Notes under the pieces: generated by a model
Told to the model about the DNA's origin: nothing
The model's input: the letters and a program-made list of their open reading frames with translations, nothing else
Database searches by the model: none
Position numbers and translations under genes: made by a program
Origin: Sphingomonas quercus
Lineage (GTDB): Bacteria > Pseudomonadota > Alphaproteobacteria > Sphingomonadales > Sphingomonadaceae
Assembly: GCF_018863195.1 (NCBI RefSeq)
Contig: NZ_JAHKRT010000003.1
Location: 248,001 to 312,000 of the forward strand
Reading direction: 5' to 3'
DNA length: 64,000 nucleotides
In this document: piece after piece, positions 28,789 to 48,476 of the stretch
Layout: every line of letters begins with the position of its first letter
Numbering within the stretch: the first letter of the stretch is position 1

Positions 28789-28794
28789 GTTGGA

Positions 28795-31250: not shown

Positions 31251-31266
31251 TTCCCTTAATGGGGAA
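31251..31266. promoter_or_regulatory. operator a of the catabolic regulon (TTCCC-TTAATG-GGGAA)
   Basis: First of five copies of TTCCC-N6-GGGAA. It ends 34 bases upstream of the MFS start and lies in an AT-rich segment, flanked by TAATT and TTAAT. See operators b to e; the extended consensus is TTTATTCCC-N6-GGGAATAAA. Confidence 0.72.
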
Positions 31267-31355
31267 TTAATGGACGCCGGTAGCGCGACCGTCAAGCACG
31301 GCGTCGGTCGGCGTCTCAAAAAAACCGCGTTGACGACCTAACCGCATTGCCTTTA

Positions 31356-31371
31356 TTCCCCTCTGCGGGAA
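31356..31371. promoter_or_regulatory. operator b of the catabolic regulon (TTCCC-CTCTGC-GGGAA)
   Basis: Located 88 bases before the start of TonB receptor 1, in the same divergent promoter region as operator a (85 bases away centre to centre not exact). Left flank CTTTA matches copies d and e. Confidence 0.72.
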
Positions 31372-31459
31372 ATAGATCGTCCGGCCTGATGAAGGCTGGC
31401 GGCGGCCCGCAAAGGTGGGGGCAGAGGCGCCCGCACGAACCGATCCCGGGGGAGGAAAT

Positions 31460-33688
31460 ATGCAGGGAACCATGAAGCTCGGGCTGCTGCTGACCGCAGG
31501 CTGCGCCCCCGCGCTGGCCTGGGCGCAGGATGCCGTGCCGACGAATGTGCAGACGGGAGGCACCGAAGCGACGAGCACCGGTGCCGACGAGGGGACGATC
31601 GGCGATATCGTCGTCACCGCGCAGAAGCGCGCGGAGAATGTGCAGGATATCCCGCTCGCCATCACGGCGATCCAGGGCGATACGCTTCAGCAGCGGCAGG
31701 TAACCGCAGTCGACCAGCTCACGACGATCGCACCGAGCGTCAATTTTGGGACCTATGGCGGCGCCGCGCGGATCGCGATCCGTGGCATCGGCTTCGACAT
31801 TCCCGATCCAGGCTCCGAAGGACGGGTGGCCTATCACCTCGATGGCGTCTACATCAGCCGCCCGGCTGCACAGCTGGGCACCTTCTTCGACGTCGATCGC
31901 GTCGAGGTGCTGCGCGGCCCGCAGGGCACACTCTATGGGCGCAATGCCACCGGTGGTTCGATCAACGTCATTTCCCGGGCACCGACCGATGGCCTCAGCG
32001 GCTATCTGAACCTGACGATCGGCAATTATGGCCGCGTCGCTACCGAGGGCGCGATCAGCGGCAGCCTGTCCGACGATGTCGCGGCGCGCCTTGCCGTCAT
32101 GTCCAACAATCGCGGCGGCTACGGCAAGAACGAATATACCGGCAACGACATCGACGACGCCAACCAGCGCGGCGCCCGGGCCTCGGTACGCATCGAGCCC
32201 GCCAACGATCTCACGATAGATCTCTCCGCCGACTCCTATCGCGAGAACGACCACGCCTATGGCATCCACTATTTCGGGCAATATTCGCCCGACATCCCGC
32301 TCCGAGGCGCGGTGCTGGGCGGTACCACCTCATCAAAGCTGCGGAACATCCGGTCGGACTTCGATCCCACCAACCGCCGCGAACTCTATGGCCTTGCCGG
32401 CACGTTGACCTGGGACCTTGGGCCGGCGACGCTGAAGTCGATCAGCGCCTATCGCCATTCCGAGTTTCGCGACGTCACCGACATCGACATGACCGAGCGG
32501 CCGCTCTCGCAATTCATCTTCTTCGAGAGGGCGCGCCAGTATAGCCAGGAGCTTCAGCTCTCGGGATCGTTCGGCAACAGCAACTGGCTCATCGGCGGCT
32601 ATTATTTCGACGAGAAGATCCTCGGGTCGGCCCAGGCTGCCAGGAACCTGCTCGTCAACGGCGGCGCGGATCGCCTGGTCAACGGCTTCAAGGTCGAAGG
32701 GCGACTCGGCACCAAGGCCACGGCCGTCTTCGGCCAGCTCGACCTCGCCGTCAGCGACGCGTTCAAGGTCATCCTCGGCGCGCGCTACAATCACGAAAAG
32801 CACTCGATCAACGACATCTTCCAGCTCGATTTCGTCCGCGATTATGCGCCGAACGCACCACTGGTGCCGATGCCGGGCTTTCCTCGCCAGGACGAAGTGA
32901 CCGACAATGCCTTCACGCCAAAGGCGGGCTTTGAGCTGAAGCTCAACGACGATGCCCTGATCTACGGCACGGTATCGCGCGCGTTCAAGAGCGGTGGGTA
33001 TAATCTTGGCGTCAACGTGCCTGCATTCTCGCCCGAGAAGATCTGGGCCTATGAAGCGGGGCTCAAGCTGACGACCGCCGACCGCCGGCTGCGGGCGAAC
33101 ATTGCGGGTTTCTACTACGACTATTCCAACCTGCAGCTGGCGAAGGTGGTCAATAATTCCGTCGTGACCGAGAATGCGGGCGCAGCCATATTGTATGGCG
33201 GCGAGGCCGAGCTCACCTTCCTTCCCTTCAACGGCCTCCAGCTCGACGGCGTTCTCTCCGTCATGCATTCGGAGTATCGGGATTATTCCTCGGTCGATCC
33301 GGGGCGGCCTGCGCTCGGGCTCCAGAATCTCGAAGGGAACAGCCTGGTCCAGGCGCCCGACGTCACGCTGACCGCTGGCGCGCAGTACAGCTTCGCCGGA
33401 CTGGGTGGCGAGATCAAGCTGCGGGGCGAGCTCAACTATCGCTCGAAGGTCTATTTCACCGCCTTCAACGTCGACAGCATAGCGGAGCCCAGGAACACCA
33501 AGTTCAACGCGTTCCTGACCTGGACGAGCGATGACGGCCATGTGAGCGCGACGGTCTTCGGCCGCAATCTCACCGACAAGATCACGAAGACTGGCGGGAT
33601 CGTGAACTCGGCGTCGTTCGGCACGCCACTCTCGGGTTCGATCAGCCCGCCGCGCACCTTTGGCGTGACCGTAGGCTATAATTTCTAG
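31460..33688 (+). CDS. TonB-dependent outer-membrane receptor 1
   Basis: 742 residues from ATG 31460, with a GGGGGAGG site. A signal peptide is followed by a short linker and the TonB box-like segment GDIVVTAQKRAENVQDIPLA. The plug domain has QLTTIAPSVNFGTYGG and GIGF; DRVEVLRGPQGTLYGRNATG and GSINVISRAPTDG are family landmarks; the barrel ends in RTFGVTVGYNF with terminal Phe. It belongs to the large sphingomonad group that takes up aromatic or plant-derived compounds. It is very similar along its whole length to receptor 2 at 40740-42953, which is on the other strand. Probably co-transcribed with the FAD monooxygenase gene. Confidence 0.93.
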   Translation: MQGTMKLGLLLTAGCAPALAWAQDAVPTNVQTGGTEATSTGADEGTIGDIVVTAQKRAENVQDIPLAITAIQGDTLQQRQVTAVDQLTTIAPSVNFGTYGGAARIAIRGIGFDIPDPGSEGRVAYHLDGVYISRPAAQLGTFFDVDRVEVLRGPQGTLYGRNATGGSINVISRAPTDGLSGYLNLTIGNYGRVATEGAISGSLSDDVAARLAVMSNNRGGYGKNEYTGNDIDDANQRGARASVRIEPANDLTIDLSADSYRENDHAYGIHYFGQYSPDIPLRGAVLGGTTSSKLRNIRSDFDPTNRRELYGLAGTLTWDLGPATLKSISAYRHSEFRDVTDIDMTERPLSQFIFFERARQYSQELQLSGSFGNSNWLIGGYYFDEKILGSAQAARNLLVNGGADRLVNGFKVEGRLGTKATAVFGQLDLAVSDAFKVILGARYNHEKHSINDIFQLDFVRDYAPNAPLVPMPGFPRQDEVTDNAFTPKAGFELKLNDDALIYGTVSRAFKSGGYNLGVNVPAFSPEKIWAYEAGLKLTTADRRLRANIAGFYYDYSNLQLAKVVNNSVVTENAGAAILYGGEAELTFLPFNGLQLDGVLSVMHSEYRDYSSVDPGRPALGLQNLEGNSLVQAPDVTLTAGAQYSFAGLGGEIKLRGELNYRSKVYFTAFNVDSIAEPRNTKFNAFLTWTSDDGHVSATVFGRNLTDKITKTGGIVNSASFGTPLSGSISPPRTFGVTVGYNF

Positions 33689-33700
33689 CGCCGATCTGCG

Positions 33701-33741
33701 GGACCGGACCTCGCGGCGCACCGCGCAGCGAGGGCCGGTCC
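33701..33741 (+). terminator. strong hairpin after TonB receptor 1
   Basis: GGACCGG-A-CCTCGC pairs with GCGAGG-G-CCGGTCC around a 13-base loop, 12 bases after the stop. No T-run follows; it may stabilise the mRNA end or attenuate reading into the monooxygenase gene 90 bases further. Confidence 0.55.
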
Positions 33742-33832
33742 GCCTCCCAACCGAGCGGCGTTGTCGACGCCTCCCGTCGGGAAGGGCCGCGGGCGTCCAA
33801 CAAGGGCAAAGTAAATCAGGTGGGAGTACGCG

Positions 33833-34948
33833 GTGAGGATCCTGATTGTTGGCGGCGGCATCGCGGGCCTGTCTGCTGCCCTTGCGCTTTCGAAGCTTGG
33901 AAGCGAGGTGCATCTCGTCGAGGTCCAGCCCCGCCTCCAGGCCATCGGCACCGGTCTCACCATGTCCCTTCTGACTTGCCGGGCGCTGCGCGACCTCGGG
34001 GTCGGTGACGAGGTTGCCGCCCAAGGCTTTCGGCACAATGGATGGGACGTCCATGATCGCCACGGCAATCACATCGAGTCGGTCCTGTCAGCGCCTTCGG
34101 ATAGCGGTGAGCTGCTCGAAGGCGCCATCCTGCGGCCGGTTCTGCACGCCATTCTTGCCGACAGAGTCCGCGCGACCGACGTCAGACTCGAACTTGGTGC
34201 ATCGGTTTCAGGCCTCAGCAGCACCGCCACGGGCTGTACCGTGACCTTCTCGAATGGCCGGCAGGGCACCTACGACATGGTGGTGGCCGCCGATGGCGCA
34301 TATTCGAGCATGCGCCGCCTGATCATGCCCGAGTTCGCCGCGACCCCTTATTCCGGTCAGGTCTGCTGGCGCGCGCTGTTCGACCGACCGGCCCATGTGG
34401 TCCGAGGCATGATGTTCCAGTCGGATCACGCCAAGATGGGCCTCAATCCGTGCTCTAGCGACAAGATGTACATGTTCTTCAACGAGGCGGTCGCCGAGCC
34501 CCAGCGCCACAGCCGGAGCCATCTGGCCAACCGGCTGCGAGAGATATTGGGCGAGTTCGAAAAGGCCTTGGCCGGCCTCATCCCCGCGATCGACGAGCAT
34601 GTGGAGATCAACTACCGGCCGCTGGACGCCTGTCTCGTCCGGGGCGCTTACCACCGGGGTCGCGTCATCCTGATCGGTGACGCAGCGCATGGCCCGACCC
34701 CTCACCTCGGGGCCGGCGCCGGCCTCGCCGTAGAGGACGCCCTCGTCCTCGCGCGAGAAGTCGACGCAAGCGCTGGCTGCGTTTCAAGAGCCTTTGCCTC
34801 GTTCATGAAGATACGGTCTCCGCGCGTGGAGTATGTCGTGGAGACGTCATTGAAGCTGGGGCGGATGGAGATGGCCGGAGAGCCTGTCTCCCAAAGGACA
34901 GAGATCATGGCGCAGGCACGAGAGCGCATGAAGGAATCCTACAGCTAG
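33833..34948 (+). CDS. FAD-dependent aromatic monooxygenase (PF01494 type)
   Basis: 371 residues from a GTG with AGGTGGGAG upstream. FAD-binding motif RILIVGGGIAGLSAALALSK (residues 2-21), the conserved DG of MVVAADGAYSSMRRL, and the second FAD motif VILIGDAAHGPTPHLGAGAG with LAVEDALVLA. This is the 3-hydroxybenzoate/salicylate/UbiH-type group that hydroxylates aromatic rings with NAD(P)H and O2. In this cluster it would prepare the ring for the extradiol dioxygenase encoded at 44622. Exact substrate unknown. Confidence 0.87.
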   Translation: MRILIVGGGIAGLSAALALSKLGSEVHLVEVQPRLQAIGTGLTMSLLTCRALRDLGVGDEVAAQGFRHNGWDVHDRHGNHIESVLSAPSDSGELLEGAILRPVLHAILADRVRATDVRLELGASVSGLSSTATGCTVTFSNGRQGTYDMVVAADGAYSSMRRLIMPEFAATPYSGQVCWRALFDRPAHVVRGMMFQSDHAKMGLNPCSSDKMYMFFNEAVAEPQRHSRSHLANRLREILGEFEKALAGLIPAIDEHVEINYRPLDACLVRGAYHRGRVILIGDAAHGPTPHLGAGAGLAVEDALVLAREVDASAGCVSRAFASFMKIRSPRVEYVVETSLKLGRMEMAGEPVSQRTEIMAQARERMKESYS

Positions 34949-35077
34949 GCCAGTATGCTCGCTCGGTATTGTTCCCGGTTTTGGCAGCCCCGTGCTCGGT
35001 CGTGAATTCCGACAAGGGGGTCATCCGGGCTCTCCGTCGAGCGCGTCGATCTTGAGAGCATGTCCAAGGAGGATAAT

Positions 35078-35482
35078 GTGCGCTTTCGTCATGCGGAACG
35101 AGAAGCGAGCTTCACCATCGATGCGGACCAAGCCCGGCGATGGGTCCAGATCAGCATCGTCGGTACTTGGACAATATCGATTGCCGAACAGCACCGGGCC
35201 GCGCTGCTCAAGGTGGCCACAAGCCTCGATGCTGAGGCGGCGCGCTCCTTCTGGCTGGTCGACCTGCGCGAACGGCTCGCGCATCCCAAGGAGGTCGCCG
35301 ACTATATCGGCGGATCGATCGCGAAGGTGACGTCGGATAGCCGGCATGTCGTGGCGCTGGTGCTCGGAACGGCGATCGCGGGCCTGCAGGCCAAGCGGCT
35401 CTCGGCCGGCGAGGTCATTCGCGCCTTTCCCTCCTATGCCGAAGCCGAGCGGTGGCTCGAGGAACAGCAGGCTAGCGCATGA
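35078..35482 (+). CDS. STAS/SpoIIAA-like small protein of unknown function
   Basis: 134 residues from the GTG at 35078, chosen because AAGGAGG lies 5 bases before it; the ATG at 35060 is 6 codons upstream and lacks such a site. The sequence alternates helices and strands (WVQISIVGTWTISIAEQHRA, SFWLVDLRERLAHPKEVADY) and ends AFPSYAEAERWLEEQQASA, as in SpoIIAA/STAS-like proteins of proteobacteria. The function is unknown; it follows the monooxygenase gene after about 130 bases and precedes the convergent TetR gene. Confidence 0.5.
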   Translation: MRFRHAEREASFTIDADQARRWVQISIVGTWTISIAEQHRAALLKVATSLDAEAARSFWLVDLRERLAHPKEVADYIGGSIAKVTSDSRHVVALVLGTAIAGLQAKRLSAGEVIRAFPSYAEAERWLEEQQASA

Positions 35483-35515
35483 CCGTCCGCTGACCGCGAA
35501 AGCCCATGCCCGGTT

Positions 35516-36160
35516 TCACCGCTTCACGCCGTTCAGGATGATATCGGTCGCGAACTCGACATAGCGTCGTTCGAGATCCGGCCGGTCGCTGTCGTCCTTG
35601 AAGATTATGCCGATGATCGGCTCGTTGCTGCTCCAGAACTCGCAGATCGACACGATCATCATGTGAAGGAAACGTGGCTCGATCGGTCGCAGCTCTCCGC
35701 TGCGGACGCCCTCGTCCACGATGTTCTGGATGTCCGCGACGGTATCGTTGAGCAGCTTCACCCACTCGGTTCGCTCAGGCGATTCTTCCTCGTCGCCATA
35801 GAACATCGCCGAGACGAGCTTGTGATGCCCCCTGTTCTCATTGAACAGGCGGAATGTCCTCTCGACCCTAAAGCGGATACGGTCGGTCGGGCTATCCTCG
35901 CGCTTTGCCGCCATGTCGGTCCGGACCTGCCTGAGCACGCCCGAGACGACCTCGCCCAGGAGCTGGCGCATGTTGCCGAAATAATAGCGCACCAGTCGCG
36001 GTGCCACGCCGGCATGGGCTGCGACCGCCTGGCGCGTCACGAGCGCGGGATCGGTTTTCATCAGCACCTGGCGGGCGGCCTCGACCAGGGCATCGGGCCC
36101 CACATCACCGCTGTCCCGCGATGGCCGTCCCCTGCCACGCTTGGGTGTCTGCTCCGACAA
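35516..36160 (-). CDS. TetR-family regulator, candidate regulator of the catabolic cluster
   Basis: 214 residues from a TTG with AAAAGG upstream. The N-terminal KRGRGRPSRDSGD arm and helix-turn-helix VTRQAVAAHAGVAPRLVRYY then FGNMRQLLGEVVSGVL are typical of TetR repressors. It is the only regulator gene between 26.3 and 47.1 kb, so it is the natural candidate to bind the five TTCCC-N6-GGGAA palindromes. Its own promoter region (36161-36428) has no copy within 250 bases of the start; operator c lies between it and the next gene. Confidence 0.85.
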   Translation of the reverse strand: MSEQTPKRGRGRPSRDSGDVGPDALVEAARQVLMKTDPALVTRQAVAAHAGVAPRLVRYYFGNMRQLLGEVVSGVLRQVRTDMAAKREDSPTDRIRFRVERTFRLFNENRGHHKLVSAMFYGDEEESPERTEWVKLLNDTVADIQNIVDEGVRSGELRPIEPRFLHMMIVSICEFWSSNEPIIGIIFKDDSDRPDLERRYVEFATDIILNGVKR

Positions 36161-36488
36161 TAGTTGCGCCTTTTCAAGTCATCGTTCCAGCCCCTGGGCG
36201 GGCCCCATTCATGCAGCCACGATAGGAGGCGGCCGGGGAAAAGGCCAGATGCAGGCCTGCTCGGACGCTATGCAGCGACCGTCATAAGGCAGCCGTGCGA
36301 AGGCCACCCTACGGCCAGCAAGCCCTCGGCCGGCGCGCAACGATCATGGATCTCCTGCCGTCGCCCCGTCGAGGCGGGAGGCACCTTCCTGTTGCACTCC
36401 CTGGCGAGCCACGCTAGTCCGGGATATATTCCCTATAAGGGGAATAAATTCAGCCGCGAAGGTGGTTGCATGCGTCAGGGGACCGAGG
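36161..36488. other. divergent promoter region of TetR and histidinol-dehydrogenase-like genes
   Basis: No gene found in 328 bases. It contains operator c at 36429-36444 close to the right-hand gene; the remainder shows no recognisable site. Confidence 0.5.
36429..36444. promoter_or_regulatory. operator c of the catabolic regulon (TTCCC-TATAAG-GGGAA)
   Basis: The arms extend to TATTCCC and GGGAATA (7 perfect bases each). It ends 44 bases before the start of the histidinol-dehydrogenase-like gene. Confidence 0.75.
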
Positions 36489-37814
36489 ATGGCTTTTCAT
36501 CTCAAGCTGGGAACGACAACCGAGGCGAAGGCCAGTCGTGACAGGTCCGTGCGGCATATCGTCGAGGAGGTCCTTGCCGACATCGAGGCTCGCGGGGACG
36601 ACGCGGTACGCGAGCTGTCGATCAAATATGATCAGTGGGATCGCGAAAGCTACCGGCTGACCCCTGCCGAAGTCCAGGAGTGTATCGCCCAGCTGACCGC
36701 CCAGGATCTCAAGGATATCGAGTTCGCGCAGGCGCAGGTCAGGAACTTCGCGCGCATCCAGCGTCAATCCCTGGCCGATGTCGAGGTCGAGACGGTGCCC
36801 GGCGTGATACTCGGCCACAGAAATGTGCCGCTCAATGCTGCCGGCTGCTACGTTCCGGGCGGCAAGTACCCGCTGCTTGCATCTGCCCATATGTCGGTCG
36901 TGACGGCCAAGGTGGCCGGGGTCCCGCGCGTTGTCACCTGCGCGCCTCCCTTCCAGGGAAAGCCCTCGCCCGCGATCGTCGCCGCGCAGGCCCTGGCAGG
37001 CGCCGACGAGATTTATTGCCTCGGCGGCATCCAGGCGATCGGCGCCATGGGTCTGGGGACGCGAACCATCGCGCCTGTCGATATGCTTGTCGGTCCCGGC
37101 AACGCTTTCGTCGCCGAGGCGAAGCGGCAGCTCTTTGGCCGGGTCGGGATCGACCTGTTCGCCGGGCCGACCGAGACGCTCATCATCTGCGACGAGATCG
37201 GGTGCGACCCCGAACTGGCCGCGACCGACCTGCTGGGCCAGGCCGAACATGGGCCTGACAGCCCGGCAGTGCTGCTCACGACATCGACACATCTCGCCCG
37301 CGAGACGATTGCCGAGGTCGAGCGCCTCCTGGAAATCCTGCCCACGGCCGAGCATGCCCGGCGTGCATGGGAGGCGCATGGCGAGGTGATCGTAGCGGAG
37401 AGCGACGCCGAGATGGTCGCGATCGCCGACAGGATCGCCTCCGAGCATGTTCAGGTGATGACCCGCGACCCTGACTATTTCCTCGAGAACATGACCAATT
37501 ATGGCGCACTGTTCCTGGGTGCCCGCACCAATGTCAGCTACGGCGACAAGGTCATCGGCACAAACCACACGCTGCCAACCAGGAAGGCTGCGCGGTACAC
37601 GGGCGGCCTCTGGGTCGGCAAATTCCTCAAGACCTGCACGTATCAGAAGATCCTCACCGACGAGGCTTCGGCCATGATCGGGGAATATTGCTCCCGCCTG
37701 TGCGCGCTCGAGGGCTTTGCGGGCCATGGCGAGCAGGCTAATATCCGGGTTCGGCGCTTCGGCCATCGCAACGTGCCCTATGCGGGGCGGGTCGAGCCCG
37801 CCGACGCGATCTGA
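36489..37814 (+). CDS. histidinol dehydrogenase-like NAD-dependent alcohol dehydrogenase
   Basis: 441 residues from ATG 36489, with AGGGGA 6 bases before. HisD-family landmarks: [67 protein letters not shown] and NYGALFLG. It has no histidine biosynthesis neighbours, and the family includes HpsN-like sulfopropanediol dehydrogenases and other catabolic alcohol dehydrogenases. It probably oxidises a primary alcohol of the cluster substrate in two steps to the acid. Followed after 5 bases by an SDR gene. Confidence 0.85.
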
Positions 37815-37819
37815 AGCCT

Positions 37820-38584
37820 GTGGACCTGCCGCGCACTCCAAGTTTTCGGCTCGATCACCGGCGCGCACTGGTGACCGGCGCAGGCCGCGGGATCGGTCTC
37901 GCGCTGGCAGCGGCGCTGGCCGAGGCCGGTGCCGAGGTAACGCTGGTCGCGCGCACCCGCGATGAGATCGAGCAAGGCGCGCGGGCGATCGGAGCGGCGG
38001 GTGGACGTGCCCGGGCCGTTACCCTCGACGTGACCGATCTCCAAGCGGTCAGGGATTATTTCGCGCAGCAGCCCGCGTTCCACATTCTCGTCAACAATGC
38101 CGGGACCAACCGGCCGCGGGCCATGTGGGACGTCAGCGAAGCCGATTACGACGCCGTAATGGGCCTCAACCTCAAATCGGCCTATTTCGTCGCGCAGGCC
38201 TGCGCCCGCAGGATGATGGCTGAAGGCGTGCAGGGCAGCCTCGTCCATGTCGGATCGCAAATGGGTCATGTCGGCGGCCCCGATCGCTCGCTCTACTGCG
38301 CGTCCAAATGGGCGCTCGAGGGCATGAGCAAGGCGATTGCGCTGGACCTGGCGCCCTTCGGCATCCGCTCGAACACGCTCGCGCCCACCTTCATCGAAAC
38401 ACCCATGACCAGGCCTTTCTTCGAAGATCCTGCGTTCAAGGCGAGCGTCCTCGCCAGGATCAAGCTCGGGCGCCTTGGTGCGGTTGAGGATCTGATGGGA
38501 TCCGTCCTCTACCTTGCCAGCGATGCCGGCGCACTCGTGACGGGCACCAGCCTCGTCGTCGACGGCGGGTGGACCGCAGAGTGA
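37820..38584 (+). CDS. short-chain dehydrogenase/reductase (SDR)
   Basis: 254 residues from a GTG 5 bases after the previous stop. Motifs: RALVTGAGRGIGLALAAALA (cofactor), LVNNAGTNRP, the active-site Ser in GSLVHVGSQMG, the YCASKWALEG Tyr and Lys, and APTFIETPM. The overall look is that of gluconate/3-oxoacyl reductases (KduD-like). In an operon with the histidinol-dehydrogenase-like gene it likely interconverts a secondary alcohol and ketone of the pathway. Confidence 0.88.
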   Translation: MDLPRTPSFRLDHRRALVTGAGRGIGLALAAALAEAGAEVTLVARTRDEIEQGARAIGAAGGRARAVTLDVTDLQAVRDYFAQQPAFHILVNNAGTNRPRAMWDVSEADYDAVMGLNLKSAYFVAQACARRMMAEGVQGSLVHVGSQMGHVGGPDRSLYCASKWALEGMSKAIALDLAPFGIRSNTLAPTFIETPMTRPFFEDPAFKASVLARIKLGRLGAVEDLMGSVLYLASDAGALVTGTSLVVDGGWTAE

Positions 38585-38694
38585 AGCCGTCGGCATGGCC
38601 AAGGCAGCTTGCCTCATGATGATCGAGCCCGACCCCCATGAACTTGAACATGGCTCGGTCCCGACGGGGCAACGGGTCAACCCGGAGTGACCGC

Positions 38695-38817
38695 ATGACA
38701 CTTATCCGCACCTCGTCCGGCCCGAATTCCCTGGCCGGTTTCCGGCTCGATCCTCGCCAAGTCACCCATGCCGGCCAGGATCTGGTTCGTCCGGAATGCA
38801 TCCTGGCGGAATCGGAT
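38695..38817 (+). pseudogene. N-terminal remnant of an SMP-30/gluconolactonase-like gene
   Basis: MTLIRTSSGPNSLAGFRLDP and HAGQDLVRPECILAESDEAA resemble the beginning of SMP-30/gluconolactonase-type lactone hydrolases (RPECVLAE...). After about 41 codons the frame becomes meaningless, and the rest of the 420-base gap to the next gene (38585-39004) holds no gene. It suggests a lactonase gene of the cluster has been lost. Confidence 0.45.
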
Positions 38818-39004
38818 GAGGCAGCCTTCGGGAGACCTCGATCCCGAGTTTCCGCAGTCCCGTGGCAGGATTGGCGATGAGCGATTGGACACAGGCGGTT
38901 TGACGACGCGACCAGCCCGACCGGTCGTTGGGGGGGCTGGCCATCCCTTATCGAAGGCGATGAGATGCCCGGAAACAGGTCCGGGGTCGGCATATCGAAA
39001 CGCT

Positions 39005-40585
39005 CTACATGAATGCCAGCGTCCCGCCGCTCGCGGCAAAGTCCCGCAGCACGTCGAACCGCTGCTGGCTCGAGACACCAGGACGCGGCGCGTTGCTCGT
39101 GCCGAGGCCCATGACAATGAGCGATCGCTCGGAGGCACGGGGCCAGGGCGCTGCCGCGGCGGAAGGATCGCCGGAGCGGATGAATGCCAGCCACCGCGAC
39201 TGAAGTTCGGCCGTGACGCGACGGTCGTTCTCGCTGGGAGATCGGCCACCCTTGTCCAGCGCGCCAAAGATGAAGGGCACCTCGGCGGTATGAAAGGCGC
39301 CAAAGTCCTGGCCCGCCGCGTTGAGATACTTGTAGTCGAACAAATAGAGATAGACCGGCTGTCCGCCGCGCTCGCGCTTGCGTGCGAACAGGATCATGCT
39401 CGTCATATATTCGTCGCGCGACAGGGTTCGGGACGACTCCGCTGCCTCGTGATCGGTTGCATGGGGGTAGAGGGCCAGGATGCGGTCGGCGAAGGATCCG
39501 TAGCGATCGCGTACATGCGCTGCGAACGCGGCGGGCGTGCGCCTCACACCCATGAGGATATAGTCATCGCTATTGTAGCCGGTGAGCAGTGGAACGGCGC
39601 CGGTCACGGGGTGATCAACGTCTTCGGGCTCGGCCGGGATGATGGTTCCGTCGACCACGGGCGCAAAGGGAAGCGCCACTGGCGGCTTTGTCATCTCCGC
39701 AAGCGACAGGGTCGGTACGGCCGCCTGGATGACATCTGCCGGAATCGCGCGGAGTTGATCGATCGAGGCCGCCCCGAGCTTTTGGGCGAACGCCGCGCCG
39801 CGTGCCTCGGCTTCGCGGAGCGGGAGCATGTGGATGCCCATGGCTGTACCGCTCTCGGCGACGGCGCGCTTGAACAGGCCCTTGGCCTCCGGTGAGGTCA
39901 GGAGATTGTTCACTGACAGGCCGCCGGCAGACTGGCCTGCGATCGTCACATTTTCTGGATCACCCCCGAATGCTGCGATGTTGGCGCGGACCCATCTGAG
40001 CGCCTCTATCTGGTCGAGCAGCCCGTAGTTGCCCGAGCTGTTGAACTCGGATTCGCGTGTGAGTTGCGGGTGGGCGAGGAAGCCGAAGACCCCAACTCGA
40101 TAGTTGATCGTGACCACGATTACGCCCTGGCGGGCAAGTCCGGCTCCATCATAGATCGGGACGGCGCTGGAGCCGTTGGCGAAGGCACCTCCATGGACGA
40201 AGACATAGACGGGCAGCGGGTCGGACCTGTGCCGGGGCCGCCAGACGTTGAGGTAGAGGCAGTCCTCCGAGGTGGGGCCGCTGACCAGGAACTCGCTTCC
40301 AAATGGCCCGAACGGCTTTGATGGCGTCTGGATACAGGAATCTCCTGCGCGCGTGCCATCGCGTACGCCCGACCAGCGCGTTGCCGGCACCGGGTCGCGC
40401 CATCGCAGGGGTCCTATGGGCGGCTGCGCATAGGGTATGCCCTTGAAGGCCTCGGCGTCCTGTTCAACATTGCCGAGCACATCTCCAGTTTCGGTATGAA
40501 CGATGGCCTGCGCAAAGCTGCCGGAACTGGAAAGGAGGGCGTAGACAAAAAGCCCTGCGCGCATTCGAGACAACCAGCGCATCAT
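39005..40585 (-). CDS. secreted carboxylesterase (type B)
   Basis: 526 residues from ATG 40585, with an AGAGAG site; a longer frame upstream is arginine-rich noise. Signal peptide MMRWLSRMRAGLFVYALLSS ending in FAQA. Type B landmarks: GVRDGTRAGDSC, SEDCLYLNVW, the oxyanion FVHGGAF, and VTIAGQSAGGLSVNNLLTSP with the catalytic Ser; the acid residue is near GYNSDDYI and the His near FGAFHTAEVPF. It probably hydrolyses an ester of the cluster substrate in the periplasm after TonB receptor 2, with which it shares strand (155-base gap). Confidence 0.87.
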   Translation of the reverse strand: MMRWLSRMRAGLFVYALLSSSGSFAQAIVHTETGDVLGNVEQDAEAFKGIPYAQPPIGPLRWRDPVPATRWSGVRDGTRAGDSCIQTPSKPFGPFGSEFLVSGPTSEDCLYLNVWRPRHRSDPLPVYVFVHGGAFANGSSAVPIYDGAGLARQGVIVVTINYRVGVFGFLAHPQLTRESEFNSSGNYGLLDQIEALRWVRANIAAFGGDPENVTIAGQSAGGLSVNNLLTSPEAKGLFKRAVAESGTAMGIHMLPLREAEARGAAFAQKLGAASIDQLRAIPADVIQAAVPTLSLAEMTKPPVALPFAPVVDGTIIPAEPEDVDHPVTGAVPLLTGYNSDDYILMGVRRTPAAFAAHVRDRYGSFADRILALYPHATDHEAAESSRTLSRDEYMTSMILFARKRERGGQPVYLYLFDYKYLNAAGQDFGAFHTAEVPFIFGALDKGGRSPSENDRRVTAELQSRWLAFIRSGDPSAAAAPWPRASERSLIVMGLGTSNAPRPGVSSQQRFDVLRDFAASGGTLAFM

Positions 40586-40688
40586 GCATTTACTCTCTTC
40601 ACTCTTGTGGTGATGGATGACTTGGGGCGGGCGGACGTGGGTGCGACCGCCGATACGTCTGCGCGCGCGGGCGCATATTTTGTGAGGC

Positions 40689-40724
40689 GGGAAGCTTCTG
40701 CTGCGCGGAGCAGCGAAGCTTCCC
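40689..40724. terminator. hairpin after TonB receptor 2
   Basis: GGGAAGCTTC-T-GCTGC pairs with GCAGC-GAAGCTTCCC around GCGGA: a 15-base-pair stem with one bulge. It lies 16 bases after the stop of the receptor gene on the minus strand. No T-run; it may limit reading into the esterase gene. It may also serve as a transcript end. Confidence 0.5.
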
Positions 40725-40739
40725 GTCCTCGATGGCTGC

Positions 40740-42953
40740 TCAGATCGTATAGCCGAGGGTGAACCCGAACGTTCGCGGCGGGCTGATCGAACCGGAGATC
40801 GGCGAACCAAAGTCCACCGTGTTCACGAGACCACCGGTCTTGGTGATCTTGTTGGTGAGATTGCGCCCGAAGATCGTGGCGCTCACATGGCCGTCATCGC
40901 TTGTCCAGGTCAGGAAGGCATTGAACTTCGTGTTTCGCGCCTGGCCGACGCTGTCGATGTTGAAGGCGGTGAAATAGACCCGCGACCGGTAGTTGAGTTC
41001 ACCCCGGATCCTGATCTCGCCGCCCGGACCTGCAAAGCCATACTGGGCGCCTGCGGTCAGCGTGACGTCGGGCGCCTGGACGAGCCTATGTCCTTCCAGG
41101 TCCTGCAGCCCGAGGTTCGGATCGGCGGGATCCACCGAGGAGAAGTCGCGATATTCCGAGTGCATGACGGACAGGGCCCCGTCGAGCTGGAAGCCGGTAA
41201 AGGGAAGGAATGTGACTTCCGCCTCGCCGCCGTAGATGATTGCAGCGCCGGCATTCTCCGTGACGACATTGTTGTTGACCACCTTGGCCAGCTGCAAGTT
41301 GGAGTAGTCGTAGTAGAAGCCGGCGAGATTAGCCCGCAGCCGGCGATCGGCGGTCGTCAGCTTGAGCCCCGCTTCATAGGCCCAGATGTTCTCGGGCTTG
41401 AAGGCGGGGACATTGAGTCCAAGGTTGTAGCCGCCGCTCTTGAAACCGCGGGAAACGGTTGCGTAGAGCAGGGCATCGTCGTTGAGCTTGAATTCCAGGC
41501 CCGCCTTGGGCGTCACGACATTGTCGGTGACAGCATCGGAGCGCGGGAAGCCGGGGAAGGGAAGGAGCGGCGCGTTGGGCGCATAATCGCGATCATTGTC
41601 GAGCTGGAAGACATCGGTGATCGAGTGCGTCTCGTGGTTGTAGCGCGCGCCGAGGATGACCTTGAACGCGTCGCTGAGCGCCAGGTCGAGCTGGCCGAAG
41701 ACGGCGGTGGCCTTGGTGCCGAGATGCCCCTCCACCTTGAAGCCGTTGACGTAGCGGTCCGGGCCGCCATTGAGGATCAGGTTGGAAGGCACCTGCGCGG
41801 AGCCCACCACCTTCTCGTCGAAATAATAGCCGCCGATAAGCCAATTGCTGTTGCCGAACGATCCCGAGAGCTGGAGCTCCTGGCTGTACTGGTGGGCCTT
41901 CTCGGCAAAGATGAACTGCGACAGCGGCAGTTCGGTCATGTCGATATCGGTGACGTCGCGAAACTGCGAGTGGCGATAGGCGCTGATCGACTTGAGGGTC
42001 ACGGGACCGAGATCCCAGGTCACGGCACCGGCGAAGCCATAGAGCTCACGCCGGTTGGTGGGATCGAAATCCGAGTTCAGGTTGCGGAGCTTCGAGGGCG
42101 CCGTGCCGCCGAGTACCCCGGCGCGGAGCTGGATGTCGGGCGAATATTGCCCGAAATAGTGGATGCCATAGGCGTGGTCATTCTCGCGATAGAAGTCGGC
42201 CGAGAGATCGGTCGTGAGATTGTCGGCAGGCTTGATGCGTACCGAGGCCCGGGCGCCGCGCTGGTTGGCGTCGTCGATGTCGTTGCCGGTATATTCGTTC
42301 TTGCCGTAGCCGCCGCGATTGTTCGACATGACGGCAAGGCGCGCCGTGACATCGTCGGACAGGCTGCCGCTGACAGCCGATTCCACTGCCACGCGGCCAT
42401 AATTGCCAACGGTCAGGTTGGCATAGCCGCTGAGCGCTTCGGTCGGCGCCTTTGAAATGACGTTGATCGAACCACCGGTTGCGTTGCGGCCGTAGAGCGT
42501 GCCCTGCGGCCCGCGCAGCACCTCGACGCGGTCGACATCGAAGAAGGTGCCAAGCTGTGCGGATGGGCGACTGACATACACGCCATCGAGGTGATAGGCG
42601 ATGCGGCCTTCGGAGCCCGGATCGGGAAGATCGAAGCCGATGCCACGGATCGCGATCCGCGCGGCGCCGCCATAGGTGCCGAAGTTGATGCTGGGGGTGA
42701 CCGCGACAAGCTGGTCTACGCCATTCACCTGACGTTCGCGCAGGGTATCGCCGCCAACAGCCGTGATGGCGAGCGGAATATCCTGCACATTCTCCGCGCG
42801 CTTCTGGGCGGTGACGACGATCTCTCCAATCGTGCCGTCCTTCGCCGCAGCGGGCGAGTCGCCGGTCCCTGCGGCCGCCCCGGCCTGCGCCAATGCCAGT
42901 GCCGGCCAGCAGCTCGCGGCCAGGAGCAGCCCGCACCTGATCATCCTGTTCAT
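40740..42953 (-). CDS. TonB-dependent outer-membrane receptor 2
   Basis: 737 residues from ATG 42953, with GAGGAGGGG 8 bases upstream; an earlier in-frame start at 42977 has no such site. Signal peptide MNRMIRCGLLLAASCWPALA; the TonB-box segment GEIVVTAQKRAENVQDIPLA, plug landmarks DRVEVLRGPQGTLYGRNATG and a barrel ending in RTFGFTLGYTI. Most residues match receptor 1 by eye, with differences concentrated in the signal peptide and some loops, so the two arose by duplication. It is oriented opposite to receptor 1. Operator d precedes it. Confidence 0.93.
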   Translation of the reverse strand: MNRMIRCGLLLAASCWPALALAQAGAAAGTGDSPAAAKDGTIGEIVVTAQKRAENVQDIPLAITAVGGDTLRERQVNGVDQLVAVTPSINFGTYGGAARIAIRGIGFDLPDPGSEGRIAYHLDGVYVSRPSAQLGTFFDVDRVEVLRGPQGTLYGRNATGGSINVISKAPTEALSGYANLTVGNYGRVAVESAVSGSLSDDVTARLAVMSNNRGGYGKNEYTGNDIDDANQRGARASVRIKPADNLTTDLSADFYRENDHAYGIHYFGQYSPDIQLRAGVLGGTAPSKLRNLNSDFDPTNRRELYGFAGAVTWDLGPVTLKSISAYRHSQFRDVTDIDMTELPLSQFIFAEKAHQYSQELQLSGSFGNSNWLIGGYYFDEKVVGSAQVPSNLILNGGPDRYVNGFKVEGHLGTKATAVFGQLDLALSDAFKVILGARYNHETHSITDVFQLDNDRDYAPNAPLLPFPGFPRSDAVTDNVVTPKAGLEFKLNDDALLYATVSRGFKSGGYNLGLNVPAFKPENIWAYEAGLKLTTADRRLRANLAGFYYDYSNLQLAKVVNNNVVTENAGAAIIYGGEAEVTFLPFTGFQLDGALSVMHSEYRDFSSVDPADPNLGLQDLEGHRLVQAPDVTLTAGAQYGFAGPGGEIRIRGELNYRSRVYFTAFNIDSVGQARNTKFNAFLTWTSDDGHVSATIFGRNLTNKITKTGGLVNTVDFGSPISGSISPPRTFGFTLGYTI

Positions 42954-43022
42954 CGGATTTCCCCTCCTCGGTTGCATCGCGGGTGCTTTGCCCGCGCCCC
43001 GTGGGAGCTCGGGTTTGGACCA

Positions 43023-43056
43023 GAGCTTTTATTCCCTCTATGAGGAATAAAAGCTC
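43023..43056. promoter_or_regulatory. operator d of the catabolic regulon inside a 34-base palindrome
   Basis: The core TTCCC-TCTATG-AGGAA (43032-43047) differs from the consensus by one base but sits in a longer perfect palindrome with 13-base arms, GAGCTTTTATTCC and GGAATAAAAGCTC, around CTCTATGA. The core is 78 bases before the start of TonB receptor 2. Confidence 0.75.
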
Positions 43057-43276
43057 TTTATGGCGGCGTCAAGCCATCCTTCTTCTCGCGCCTCGCGATG
43101 AGATGCAGTCCAACGGGAGGGTCGGTGCGAAGGGGGAAAGCCCGCTTCTCCGGGTGAGCGTCCTCAGCGAATTTGCGGTTCCTGCTGGGCTTTTGCGCAT
43201 CGGCTCGAGCGCGAGGGCAGCAGAGGCATCACCGCGCTAGATTACTTGCTGCCCCGGTCCGAGCGGCGGATAAACG

Positions 43277-44620
43277 CTATGGGACTATCCGGCCGGTGCA
43301 AATGCCAAGGCCGATAGAGACATAACCGTCGGCGATGGCGCATCCTGCCAGCGTAACCTCATCGCCATCATGCAGGAACCGCCGCTCCTCGCCGGTGGGA
43401 AGCGTGATTGGGTCTGCGCCTCCCCGCGTCAGTTCGATCAGGCTTCCGCAGGAGCTTCGATCGGGCCCGGAGATGGTCCCGGTTCCCAGCAGGTCGCCCG
43501 GTCGGAGGTTGCACCCGTTGGAACTGTGGTGCGCCACCATCTGCGCGGCGGTCCAATAGAGGTTGGATGCGCAGACGCGTGTGATGCAAAGCGGGGGATG
43601 ACCAAGATCGCGCATCAGCGCCGACGAAAGAAAGGCTTCGAGCTGGATGCGAAAGGCGCCGCGCGATTGGTCACGCTCATGGTGGAGATGGGGTAGCGGT
43701 GGTGGGTCCTGAGGCCCTCTCGCCGGTTGGGCCATTCGGAACGGCGCCAGCGCCTCTGCCGTGACAACCCACGGCGAGACGCTCGTATGGAAGCTCTTGG
43801 CGAGGAAGGGACCGAGCGGCTGATATTCCCAGACCTGGAGATCGCGCGCCGACCAGTCGTTGAGCAGGCTCAGACCAGCGATCTGATCGCCTGCCCGATC
43901 GATCGGGATGGGTACGCCCAGATCGTTGCCTTGCGCGATCCACAGTCCGAGTTCGAGTTCGAAGTCGAGCCGGTCTGATGGCGCGAAAAGCGGGGATGAA
44001 GCGCCGCCGGGTCGATGCTGGCCTGACGGTCGACGTACTTGCTGCCCCGACACACGGACGGACGAGGCGCGCCCATGATAGGCGATCGGCATCCACTTGT
44101 AGTTCGGCAGCAGCGGATTGTCTGGACGCAACTGCCTTCCCACGCTCCTCGCGTGATGGATGCCGGCATAGAAGTCGGTATAATCGCCGGGCGCGAAAGG
44201 CAGATGCGGATCGCATGAGGCCGCATCGTGAAGAAATGGCTCCACTTCGCAGCGCTTCTCCGCGGAGGACAGCAGGTGAGACAGGCTGCGCCGCAAGAAC
44301 CGGCGATCGGCGGGGCTTCGGCTAAGCAAAGCATTGAGCGTCGAGTGCCCGAGCGCATCTGTGAACGGCGCGGGTAGCAGGTGAGCAACACCCGCCAGAT
44401 CGAGGATCCGATCCCCGATGGCTACGCCGGGGCCCGCTGACTTATCGGCCGTGGAGAAGATCCCCAGGGGCAAATTCTGGATCGGGAAGTCGGGATGGGA
44501 GACGGCTGACGAGACCCATGTCGATCGCATTGGATCATGTGTTTCGTCCAGCGTGCCCGCTAACCCGATCTCCTGACCCGGCTCCGGCATGAGCGGACGC
44601 TCTCCCATCCCGCACTTCAC
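43277..44620 (-). CDS. fumarylacetoacetase-type hydrolase
   Basis: Up to 447 residues. Relatives begin like MRSTWVSSAVSHPDFPIQNL (ATG at 44530), so the true start may be 30 codons further in; an ATG at 44590 preceded by GGGAGAG is a third choice. Fumarylacetoacetase landmarks: DFPIQNLPLGIFST, GDYTDFYAGIHHARSVG (Asp and catalytic His), FELELGLWI (metal Glu pair), NDWSARDLQVWEYQPLGPF and SPWVVT. The enzyme cleaves a C-C bond of a 2,4-dioxo acid in the homogentisate route or analogous ring-cleavage product. Last gene of a four-gene operon, 1 base after the dioxygenase gene. Confidence 0.87.
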   Translation of the reverse strand: MKCGMGERPLMPEPGQEIGLAGTLDETHDPMRSTWVSSAVSHPDFPIQNLPLGIFSTADKSAGPGVAIGDRILDLAGVAHLLPAPFTDALGHSTLNALLSRSPADRRFLRRSLSHLLSSAEKRCEVEPFLHDAASCDPHLPFAPGDYTDFYAGIHHARSVGRQLRPDNPLLPNYKWMPIAYHGRASSVRVSGQQVRRPSGQHRPGGASSPLFAPSDRLDFELELGLWIAQGNDLGVPIPIDRAGDQIAGLSLLNDWSARDLQVWEYQPLGPFLAKSFHTSVSPWVVTAEALAPFRMAQPARGPQDPPPLPHLHHERDQSRGAFRIQLEAFLSSALMRDLGHPPLCITRVCASNLYWTAAQMVAHHSSNGCNLRPGDLLGTGTISGPDRSSCGSLIELTRGGADPITLPTGEERRFLHDGDEVTLAGCAIADGYVSIGLGICTGRIVP

Positions 44621-44621
44621 C

Positions 44622-45515
44622 TTATCCGACGTTGGCTAGCCACACGGCCGTATTGGTCGGGATCAGGTCCCAGGACCGTGCCTCCCATCCTTCGTCCGCC
44701 CGGTCGATGTCCGCGACAAGCTCCATTGCGCCGCCTGCGGGACTGTCGAAGTACCAGAAGTAGCCGGAGGACACGCGATGGCGCCCGGGTCCCATTCGGC
44801 TTTTCCAGCCGTTTGCCAGCATCGCCTGCCCGCCGAGCATGAGCTCGTTGAAGCCATTTACGTGGAAGGAGAGATGGTGCAGCCCCTTCTCCTCACGCTG
44901 ACTGATGAAAAGATGATGGTGTTCTCCTCCGCCCGGCGCCCTCAGGAATATCCCCTTGCGGTCATTGAACCTGTCCGTGACCTGGAAGCCCAGCCGCTGG
45001 ATGTAGAACTCGGCCGCCCGCTCTACATCCGGCGAGAACAGCACGATATGGGCGATCGACTGCGGGGCAACTGGTGCATCGAAGTCGACCCTGCTGTTGA
45101 CCGGTCGTCCGGTCGCGGCGCCGAAAACGTTGCACAGGATCGGCTCTACCGTCAGCGGCTGCCGTCTTGAGGGACGGAAGGCGATGCCATAGCCATCGTC
45201 ATCGACGGTGCGCAGTTCGCCATCTTCGCCTAGCCGAATGTTGCGATCACCCAGGGCATTCTTGATCGATTCAAGGTCGCTTGTGCCTTCGACACCCCAG
45301 ATGATCTCGCGGATGGTGGGTCCCGAGCATACCGCAACAGGGAGCGAGGGGTCATGCATGTCGACCAGGATCGCCTCCGTCCCGTTTAAAGCCTGGTACG
45401 CCTTGCCGCTCCCGCGCTCCCCAGCATCCGCAAGGCCGAAGTCGCGGACGAACTTGGTGGCAGCTGCTAGGTCCGACACGCCCAGTATCGCCGCGTCTAC
45501 CCCGATGATTGCCAT
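44622..45515 (-). CDS. extradiol ring-cleavage dioxygenase-like VOC protein
   Basis: 297 residues with two vicinal oxygen chelate domains, residues 3-105 (DAAILGVSDLAAATKFVRDF) and about 150-285. The second holds the expected Fe(II) ligands: AHIVLFSPDVERAAEFYIQR (His), GLHHLSFHVNGF (His) and GAMELVADIDRADEG (Glu). This is the 2,3-dihydroxybiphenyl/catechol 2,3-dioxygenase superfamily. It most likely opens the catecholic or homogentisate-like ring, whose product is then cleaved by the fumarylacetoacetase encoded downstream. Confidence 0.82.
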   Translation of the reverse strand: MAIIGVDAAILGVSDLAAATKFVRDFGLADAGERGSGKAYQALNGTEAILVDMHDPSLPVAVCSGPTIREIIWGVEGTSDLESIKNALGDRNIRLGEDGELRTVDDDGYGIAFRPSRRQPLTVEPILCNVFGAATGRPVNSRVDFDAPVAPQSIAHIVLFSPDVERAAEFYIQRLGFQVTDRFNDRKGIFLRAPGGGEHHHLFISQREEKGLHHLSFHVNGFNELMLGGQAMLANGWKSRMGPGRHRVSSGYFWYFDSPAGGAMELVADIDRADEGWEARSWDLIPTNTAVWLANVG

Positions 45516-45590
45516 GGTAACCCTTACTTGAAAGAGCGGCTCGCGCCTGCGCAGGCCGGATTGTCCCTGTTAAAGCTGCTTCCATCGCGC

Positions 45591-46130
45591 TTACCGGCCG
45601 TCGATGAGGACGAACGCCACTCGCGCGATATCGTCGGTGCGGTTTTCCCACGCGTGGTTGGTTCCGCGCTGAATGAGGATGTCACCGGGATGAAGATCGG
45701 TTTCGCCATCATCCATGACCGCGGTGATCGTGCCGGATAAGACGATCGCGTAATCGACCGAGCGCGTGATGTGCATGCCGGGGTTGGGGTGGGACGCGTC
45801 ATGGACGCAGTCCTTGAACAGCGTCTGGAGCGAAGCTGACGCCTGCCGGCGGCGTTCTTCCGGGTCGTTGGAGATGGGCGGGAAATCGATGACGCGCAGG
45901 ATCGTGCCGTCCGCTGGCGGCTGAGCGCCGGAATGCTCCTGGATCGTATCGGCGGCATCGATGGCGGTCGGCGTGCCGACAGTTCGCCAGACATTGACAT
46001 TGCGATAGCCGGGACGGCCCGGGGGCGTCATTTCGACCAGCGACGAATGCTCCTCCTGAATGTAGGAACGACCGTCCGGTTTATTGGCGGTGACCACCCG
46101 GCGAACCGGCGGAAGGGGTGCAGGTAGCAT
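45591..46130 (-). CDS. cupin-domain protein
   Basis: 179 residues from ATG 46130, with GGAGAA 7 bases before it. One cupin fold in the C-terminal half: HITRSVDYAIVLSGTITAVM, DDGETDLHPGDILIQRGTNHAW with the metal His/Glu positions, and ARVAFVLIDG. Similar proteins act as isomerases or dioxygenase-like accessory enzymes in aromatic catabolism, and a single-cupin domain of this size is too small for gentisate dioxygenase. Its exact role is not known. Between the decarboxylase-like and dioxygenase genes. Confidence 0.75.
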   Translation of the reverse strand: MLPAPLPPVRRVVTANKPDGRSYIQEEHSSLVEMTPPGRPGYRNVNVWRTVGTPTAIDAADTIQEHSGAQPPADGTILRVIDFPPISNDPEERRRQASASLQTLFKDCVHDASHPNPGMHITRSVDYAIVLSGTITAVMDDGETDLHPGDILIQRGTNHAWENRTDDIARVAFVLIDGR

Positions 46131-46235
46131 TGATATTCTCCAGTGCAGGAGGTCGGCCGATCGCCGCAGGCTGGGCGATGACGGCCTCGATCCGAATTGA
46201 ATCGGTCCCGCGAGCAAAGTCTGCTGCGGCAGATT

Positions 46236-47063
46236 TCAGCTGCTCGTCAGGATGCGCTGGTCCGACAGGTCACTCGCGCCGCAGGAGTCGATCAGCGATC
46301 CGCCGCGCCATTCGACCACCGGTAGCGCGGCCAGCTTGTTGACGATGTGGAACATTGTCGGGAGTTGCTCCCAGCGGGACGGGACGAACTCAACCTTGCC
46401 AGAGCCTCGCAGAACGCGGTCATAATGGACCTGCGCCCCCGCGGACGCTGGAGTCAGGATCATTTGCTCCACCTCGGTTTCACCCTTGGTCGAAACCTTG
46501 GGAAGGAAGCGGTGATGCAGCAATCCGGCATGATCGGGCGGCGGTGGAGGCGGAGGATCGCCGGGGCTCAGGTCCTCGAGCGTCAGGTTGAGGAAGACAT
46601 GGCCGTCCCAGACCGCCCGATAGTGCGCCTGATGTTCGAAGACGCGCGGCGGCGGTAGCTCGCAATAGATCTTCGCCCATCCGATCTCCTCGCGTCCACT
46701 GAGGATCGGTTCGGGCATATTCTCCCACAGGACGGCGAGAAACGTGCCGTTGAGTTGTTCGGCGTCCCCCACGAAGCGGACCGGGTACTTAACGCCAAGC
46801 ATGGAGTATCCGCGTCCGGCAAGCCAAGCCAACTCTCGCAATTGCGTATGTTCGACGGTCACTACGGGCTCGCCGACGGGCTCGCAGCCTGGTGGAAGTA
46901 GTCCGCGCAGCGCCTCGGTTTCAGTCAGGAAGCTGACGGTAGCGGTCGTCCTCGGCGTTCTCGACATATCGAACTTGCCCCCGTCGGGCCCTTGTCGGGG
47001 GCCAGCAGTGGGCCCGAACACAAGCGGCATGCGATGGCGGCCATGATAAGTAGACAGCGTCAA
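46236..47063 (-). CDS. acetoacetate decarboxylase-family protein
   Basis: 275 residues. The ADC landmark GREEIGWAKIYCELPPPRVF carries the Schiff-base lysine (Lys131, Trp-Ala-Lys instead of the usual Trp-Pro-Lys); the N-terminal half contains VSFLTETEALRGLLPPGCEP and GVKYPVRF, and the end has the MFHIVNKLAALPVVEW strand. Members include decarboxylases and some aldolase/dehydratase-like enzymes. It is the first gene of the operon, 40 bases after operator e. A role in decarboxylation or retro-aldol cleavage of a 3-oxo acid fits. Confidence 0.8.
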   Translation of the reverse strand: MTLSTYHGRHRMPLVFGPTAGPRQGPDGGKFDMSRTPRTTATVSFLTETEALRGLLPPGCEPVGEPVVTVEHTQLRELAWLAGRGYSMLGVKYPVRFVGDAEQLNGTFLAVLWENMPEPILSGREEIGWAKIYCELPPPRVFEHQAHYRAVWDGHVFLNLTLEDLSPGDPPPPPPPDHAGLLHHRFLPKVSTKGETEVEQMILTPASAGAQVHYDRVLRGSGKVEFVPSRWEQLPTMFHIVNKLAALPVVEWRGGSLIDSCGASDLSDQRILTSS

Positions 47064-47631
47064 GGCGCGGTTCCTTCCCTAGTGATCTGACTGTCTGTTT
47101 TATTTCCCTCCATAGGGAATAAGGATCGAGTAGCAGTCCGCTCGTTGAAGCGCAAGAGGCGCCCTGCTCCTTGCGACAACGTGCAAGGCGCTCCTTGCCC
47201 CGCGCGGCCGCAGGTCAGCCATCGGGGCCGTTACGCCGCCCCGGATGGACAACTCATGGCGGAGAAGGTTGAGTACGAAGGACGGGCCCCGCCAGGGTGC
47301 TACGACCACGCGCCGCGGGGTGTTCGACCGGATTTGGTCAAGGCCGATGACCACCAACACGGTCGAGCTGGGCACCTCGGCGCCGGCTTTGGCTAGCCTA
47401 GCGAGAAATCCCCAGCTGCCCTTGCCGCGTACCGGGCACTGGATGAAGAAGGAGGTTGGCAAGGAACCGCCGACGCCTGAATATCGCGTGGACTCAGGAC
47501 TCGGCGCGCAGCACTATCTACTCCCGGTTCCTAAAACTTCCCGCGCGCCGAAGCGGCCGCCGCCGCGATACCAAGTGAAGAGCCACGCCTTAGCGATACA
47601 GAGAAGTCCCGCCGACCGGCTCAAGGTGCAC
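47064..47631. other. intergenic stretch with operator e and no supported gene
   Basis: After operator e at 47104-47119 the remaining 500 bases hold only overlapping noise-like frames. This is the right border of the catabolic cluster; the base composition changes to AT-richer sequence after 47640. Confidence 0.45.
47104..47119. promoter_or_regulatory. operator e of the catabolic regulon (TTCCC-TCCATA-GGGAA)
   Basis: Flanked by GTTTTATT on the left and TAAGG on the right; it ends 40 bases from the start of the acetoacetate-decarboxylase-like gene. Confidence 0.75.
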
Positions 47632-48422: not shown

Positions 48423-48476
48423 AGCATCTCCTACCAGCGGGAGCGCCAAGTCTCTCAGTCGCCACCATGCTGAGCT
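48423..48476 (-). ncRNA. conserved leader A (structured 5' leader candidate)
   Basis: Read on the minus strand: CTCAG ... GCGACTGAGAG ... GCGCTCCCGCT ... AGGAG, then ATG. CTCAG (48474-48470) can pair with CTGAG (48458-48454), and GCGCTCC (48446-48440) can pair with GGAGATGC (48431-48424), which covers the ribosome binding site. Same layout as leaders B, C and D. Confidence 0.5.

Follow-up and report, generated by a model that had tools for sequence, protein, structure and literature searches.

As far as the excerpted text of its report goes, the nearest described case in kind to the locus presented here is EdcR of Caenibius tardaugens, which represses the estrogen (edc) cluster and is of the TetR type (PMC8700777). 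The likeness lies in a TetR-type repressor placed within a sphingomonad catabolic cluster and in a common palindrome, overlapping the -10 element, proposed at several promoters, whereas the differences in those excerpts concern the proposed operator, TnnCnnTACnAnTnGTAnnGnnA for EdcR versus ATTCYY-N6-RRGAAT in our locus, and the C-terminal domain, TetR_C_11 (PF16859) in EdcR versus a best match to TetR_C_29 (PF17938) in our regulator (PMC8700777). PheR of Sphingobium sp. SHPJ-2 is described in the excerpts of a second report as an IclR-family protein with the core GCAACG and binding at one promoter; it is alike in that a single sphingomonad repressor governs both the uptake and the catabolism of an aromatic substrate and is relieved through an effector, and differs in belonging to the IclR rather than the TetR family (PMC13273656). 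Among the open-access literature matches listed, titles and abstract beginnings gave no description of this operator, cluster or regulon, and the motif strings recovered, among the matches listed, only two nine-letter flank strings and no title on such a regulator.

The window, which is the whole stretch of 64,000 nucleotides that was analyzed, contains a catabolic cluster with the following features (gene assignments in the MFS operon from Pfam and NCBIfam; PWM, score against the position weight matrix described below).

26293-31217, minus strand: MFS operon, comprising an MFS transporter (29856-31217), an OCD/mu-crystallin protein (28795-29859), an SSADH-type aldehyde dehydrogenase (27325-28788) and a DHDPS-family protein (26293-27312)
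31251-31266, minus strand: candidate operator core before the MFS operon, exact TTCCC-N6-GGGAA, PWM 27.5
31290-31295, minus strand: TTGACG, -35-like hexamer, 29 nt before the MFS site core
31330-31335, plus strand: TTGACG, -35-like hexamer, 26 nt before the TonB receptor 1 site core
31356-31371, plus strand: candidate operator core before TonB receptor 1 (likely ATG 31460), exact, PWM 28.3
31460-34948, plus strand: TonB receptor 1 (to 33688) and FAD monooxygenase (33833-34948)
35516-36160, minus strand: TetR-family regulator of 214 aa, proposed to bind all five sites (PF00440, PF17938; recognition helix VAPRLVRYYFGN)
36429-36444, plus strand: candidate operator core before the histidinol-dehydrogenase-like (HDH) operon, within the divergent tetR-HDH gap, exact, PWM 31.6
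36489-38584, plus strand: HDH-like gene (to 37814) and SDR gene (37820-38584)
39005-42977, minus strand: TonB receptor 2 (40740-42977), then a carboxylesterase-family ORF (39005-40810)
43032-43047, minus strand: candidate operator core before TonB receptor 2, one core mismatch, PWM 32.7, the best in the window
43067-43072, minus strand: TTGACG, -35-like hexamer, 25 nt before the TonB receptor 2 site core
43277-47063, minus strand: ADC-like gene (46236-47063), cupin (45591-46217), extradiol-dioxygenase-like gene (44622-45515) and fumarylacetoacetase (FAH; 43277-44620)
47104-47119, minus strand: candidate operator core before the ADC/extradiol dioxygenase/FAH operon, exact, PWM 28.3

This gene content suggests breakdown of an aromatic or phenolic compound, and in the PDB the HDH-like protein is matched best by sulfopropanediol 3-dehydrogenase (8v35). 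Our main reading, which we hold at a probability of about 0.85, is that the TetR protein encoded at 35516-36160 uses the five palindromes as its operators. A TetR dimer would probably bind each palindrome (consensus ATTCYY-N6-RRGAAT with A/T-rich flanks; here ATTCCC-N6-GGGAAT) and, where it lies on or beside the promoter, would shut off five units, namely those of two TonB outer-membrane receptors, one operon for an inner-membrane transporter and two for enzymes predicted to serve an aromatic-type substrate. Release of the protein by the substrate or an intermediate would then switch on uptake and breakdown together. We infer binding, repression rather than activation, and an inducer from sequence.

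The five sites reported in the first-pass annotation were all recovered, exact at 31251, 31356, 36429 and 47104 and with one mismatch at 43032, and its proposal of a local regulon stands, each palindrome preceding one transcription unit of the cluster with a predicted start. The distance of 34-88 bases given there was accurate at its upper end only, since the measured spacing from site end to start is 33 bp (MFS), 88 bp (TonB receptor 1), 44 bp (HDH), 54 bp (TonB receptor 2) and 40 bp (ADC), the HDH value being taken to ATG 36489, near which most homologues' alignments begin, and not to GTG 36462. The extended form TTTATTCCC-N6-GGGAATAAA did not hold for all copies, both flanks being fitted only at 43032, where the core has its mismatch. 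The TetR gene, named there as the sole regulator inside the cluster, is the only one seen between the outermost sites, but a LuxR-LuxI pair (24634-26097) is located just past the MFS operon.

Confinement of the sites to the cluster was observed directly. At up to one mismatch, TTCCC-N6-GGGAA matches the window seven times against a shuffle mean of 2.02 (0 of 100 shuffles as high), the two matches outside the five sites being at 2147 and 12165. The exact string occurs four times in the whole 3.64-Mb genome, and 4/4 copies lie within the cluster, which rules out chance or a genome-wide repeat. Genome-wide, 55 sites with no more than one mismatch compare with 52 for the reversed control, which is no enrichment, and the signal thus resides in the exact core plus its flanks. 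The degenerate pattern WTTCYY-N6-RRGAAW has six genomic matches, five of which are the cluster sites and the sixth of which lies within an ORF, versus none for the control. The genome scan proposed earlier as a check showed, for the exact and degenerate forms, a motif that is local and not scattered. A matrix (PWM) made from the window's five sites alone, with the spacer ignored, scores them at 27.5-32.7, and the next window score is 12.8, shifted overlaps of the sites aside; this gap arises partly by construction, because the matrix was made on those same sites.

A motif of the whole bacterial family was also ruled out, TATTCCC-N6-GGGAATA being present in 5/397 genomes versus 2/397 for its control. 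Two of these five genomes (G000 and G011) possess the TetR. The copy in G088 is inside a called gene, that in G104 precedes an ORF that looks Clp-like by eye, in an 18-kb stretch without a related TetR, and that in G244 stands before luxI.

The hexamer TTGACG lies on the transcribed strand at 3/5 units, so placed that the A/T flank of the operator (e.g. ATTAAT, TTTATT) falls at the -10 position; the frequency of TTGAC in the window is 0.0005 per strand position. That three of the five sites follow TTGACG suggests repression. TTGACG is lacking at the usual distance at the HDH and ADC units, a sigma-70 promoter scan of four intergenic regions returned no match, and in the relatives TTGAC occurs within 40 nt before only 3/35 oriented sites, and promoter blocking is accordingly put forward here as a candidate mode of repression.

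The regulator itself matches PF00440 at its N-terminal helix-turn-helix (30.7 bits, cut-off 24) and PF17938 at its C-terminus (53.3 bits, cut-off 26.2). Its best match among solved sequences is the TetR-family structure 2qtq / 2rha (E 1.6e-10, residues 22-212), compared as a structure entry alone. The tetR start lies 268 bp from the nearest operator core, in the divergent tetR-HDH gap, whereas many of its relatives have a site close to their TetR gene. Homologues at E 1e-20 were present in 18/298 family genomes, its own included, and in 0/6 of the other same-genus genomes of that draw; because of this absence from the six congeners, the cluster may be an acquired island. A class-wide search for the subfamily at E 1e-35 was positive in 1/385 genomes, the window's own.

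The window-only matrix finds related ATTCYY-N6-RRGAAT palindromes beside TetR homologues of 26-48% identity. The closest TetR, 47-49% identical, is found in genome G220 (locus L119) with ADC (63%), extradiol dioxygenase (52%), MFS (57%) and FAH (58%) homologues, which marks this as an orthologous cluster. Looking for the motif in such clusters had been proposed as a further check; L119, the nearest orthologous cluster keeping the TetR, lacks the exact TTCCC-N6-GGGAA and retains a variant, TTTATTCCTTCAATAAGGAATTTA, before its ADC gene (matrix score 27.1), in which C-to-T changes in the same register give TTCCT-N6-AGGAA. The same locus has ATATTCTTTCTAGAGAGAAAAT before a TonB receptor (15.5), a further site after FAH (19.5) and AATTCCTTTCAGAAAGAATT before MFS, which fits the pattern at a matrix score below 12. 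From this variant and the related palindromes that accompany TetRs containing RYYF, the string first noticed appears to be one lineage's version of a wider operator of a TetR subfamily of Sphingomonadales.

More distant relatives carry comparable sites. In L120 (TetR 25-27% identical), where window-matrix scores of 24.5 and 21.5 occur, two exact sites stand before a TonB receptor and a TTCCT-N6-AGGAA-type site lies between a dioxygenase and an FAD monooxygenase (18.5). In L084, from Novosphingobium profundi, the TetR is 27-30% identical, and TTCYY-N6-RRGAA occurs seven times, three of these with exact cores; scores there reach 32.2. Scores reach 26.8 and 25.0 in L170, on a Polymorphobacter megasporae plasmid, and 26.7 in L124, and across L124, L125, L126, L167 (a plasmid locus of Novosphingobium sp. 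EMRT-2) and L170 such sites are found variously before TonB receptors, the TetR gene and enzyme genes. Partner genes recurring near the related TetRs are those for FAD monooxygenase, VOC/extradiol dioxygenase, FAA hydrolase and Amidohydro_2 proteins. Three of the five plasmid loci taken for weak TetR matches (L168, L169 and L171), whose TetRs lack RYYF, have no such site set.

In order to compare regulators, 68 TetR-model matches in the loci were reduced to 43 rows by dropping those with under 200 bp upstream or with a string similarity above 0.9 to a row already retained; 21/43 have RYYF within the matched TetR stretch. The co-occurrence was observed directly: TTCYY-N6-RRGAA lies within 500 bp upstream of 14/21 RYYF TetRs (window counted) and of 0/22 others, and, of the best 80 HDH loci described below, the single one with an RYYF TetR (L084) is also the only one with two or more strong sites, so that the operator covaries with the regulator subfamily. 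The link to TetR, which had been a guess in the first-pass annotation, thus gains support from sequence comparison. A matrix score of at least 11 is reached upstream of 16/21 RYYF TetRs versus 2/22 others (L144 and L162; Fisher p 9e-6), the threshold having been picked after the scores were known and the p-values being optimistic because the rows are related. Group statistics of this kind ignore relatedness; on the tree, the label needs 7 changes against a shuffled mean of 14.0.

Seven RYYF rows have no strict pattern upstream. Four of these (L084, L126, L128 and L164) have imperfect sites scoring at least 11; L157, which is the TetR of L120, and L170 have sites elsewhere in the cluster but not in the 500 bp upstream of the TetR; and the 3.6-kb locus of L134, whose helix also has RYYF, is without a site (best score 5.6). 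In L132 and L136 the strict pattern fits with a matrix score below 11. An unsupervised palindrome count in the 200-bp upstream regions, with the window and L084 left out, found ATTCCT-N6 in 13/19, where block shuffling gave a maximum of 5 in 40 trials; it ties there with AATGGC-N6, which we read as start-codon coding sequence. On 500-bp regions the count gave CAGCCC-N11 in 14 and CTCATC-N8, ATTCCT-N6 and AATGGC-N6 in 13 each of 19, a result read as confounded by conserved coding sequence.

The neighboring LuxR-LuxI pair raises the question of whether the palindromes are lux boxes of the LuxR-type protein (25309-26097), such that quorum sensing would control the cluster. This protein and LuxI (24634-25239) adjoin the MFS operon, and in G244 (L123) a related LuxR-LuxI-PhyH module has ATTCCCTGAACAGGGAAT 59 bp before luxI; the palindrome's likeness to a lux box is therefore real, in that one genome. 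Upstream of the window luxI, however, stands another palindrome, CCGAGTGATTACTCGG (25301-25316; 61 bp from the start of luxI), and no TTCCC site is found close by even when one mismatch is allowed. The G244 LuxR is only 31-32% identical to that of the window, with a helix-turn-helix that differs by eye, and tblastn with the window LuxR and LuxI (E 1e-3) gave no match in the 17-20 kb stretches of eight motif-bearing loci (L119, L120, L084, L124, L125, L126, L167 and L170). Given the separate palindrome of luxI and the eight loci without a LuxR or LuxI match, this explanation was dropped as very improbable. Control by a regulator whose gene lies elsewhere in the genome, with the TetR neighborhood being coincidental, would accommodate the want of a close site at the window tetR and the strong single sites in three HDH loci without an RYYF TetR, yet the palindrome tracks the RYYF subfamily across loci with different enzymes and 0/79 HDH loci without such a TetR have two or more strong sites; we regard it, too, as having very little chance of being correct.

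Somewhat less remote, though still unlikely, is that TetR binds the sites and activates or fine-tunes transcription, or that the units respond differently. The empty sigma-70 scan in four regions and the HDH and ADC units without TTGACG at the usual distance would agree with this, while the three units that put the operator flank at the expected -10, with TTGACG 25-29 nt before the core, argue for repression. Most described TetR proteins are repressors.

The HDH-like gene served as a control. Its homologues are 75-85% identical in the best 80 of 536 confirmed candidate loci, from sphingomonads, Caulobacter, Acetobacteraceae, Pseudomonas and Enterobacteriaceae, and 67/80 of these HDH loci (L034-L113) also carry an SDR gene at 45% identity or more; this spread and the retained SDR partner suggest a mobile catabolic module. 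Within this set, in which 9/80 loci are under 12 kb, L084 alone reaches two or more sites with scores of at least 20 (six sites, one of them before the HDH gene), and among the 79 loci with at least 100 bp upstream it is the sole one with a strong site before that gene. L091, L109 and L112 each have one site scoring at least 20, away from the HDH gene and without an RYYF TetR, and a single exact core is found in L055 and in L095. A palindrome belonging to the HDH gene itself was ruled out on these counts, with 1/80 loci having at least two strong sites and three having single ones, none of the three before HDH.

In the HDH tree (76 rows, being the window and 75 loci after five were dropped for stops in the matched stretch), the window pairs with L039 (100/91) and L084 falls in another part of the tree. 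Branches with strong support require two changes in operator presence, and since they split the window HDH from that of L084, the HDH/SDR operon was apparently recruited at least twice; a single old operator gain before HDH followed by many losses is the alternative. We consider it about an even chance that this TetR subfamily of Sphingomonadales, with its predicted operator ATTCYY-N6-RRGAAT, is a portable control unit for aromatic-degradation clusters that takes on new enzyme modules once an operator has emerged in front of them, the HDH/SDR operon apparently having been captured at least twice. If true, the double recruitment would offer a clear-cut example of a regulon taking over a catabolic module. 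The proposed operator code is testable, concerns a little-studied regulator family in bacteria that degrade pollutants and plant compounds, would place TonB receptors, transporters and enzymes in one pathway without knowledge of the substrate, and yields a candidate sensor-promoter pair.

Several minor observations accompany these results. Two plasmids, one from Roseomonas and one from Agrobacterium, carry ADC-like genes with other neighbors. To the right of the cluster, window positions 48455-48955 match the integrase core domain rve_3 weakly (22.5 bits, below the cut-off of 26.5). Positions 23771-26097 form a PhyH-LuxI-LuxR module whose perfect palindrome, overlapping the end of luxR, is a likely lux box; the same gene trio in G244 (LuxI 37%, LuxR 31% and PhyH 54% identical) has its palindrome at the matching place. 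Tandem operators 22-23 bp apart, which is about two helical turns, stand before TonB-receptor genes in L120 (9996/10019), L124 (3087/3109) and L125 (14666/14688), while the window sites are single.
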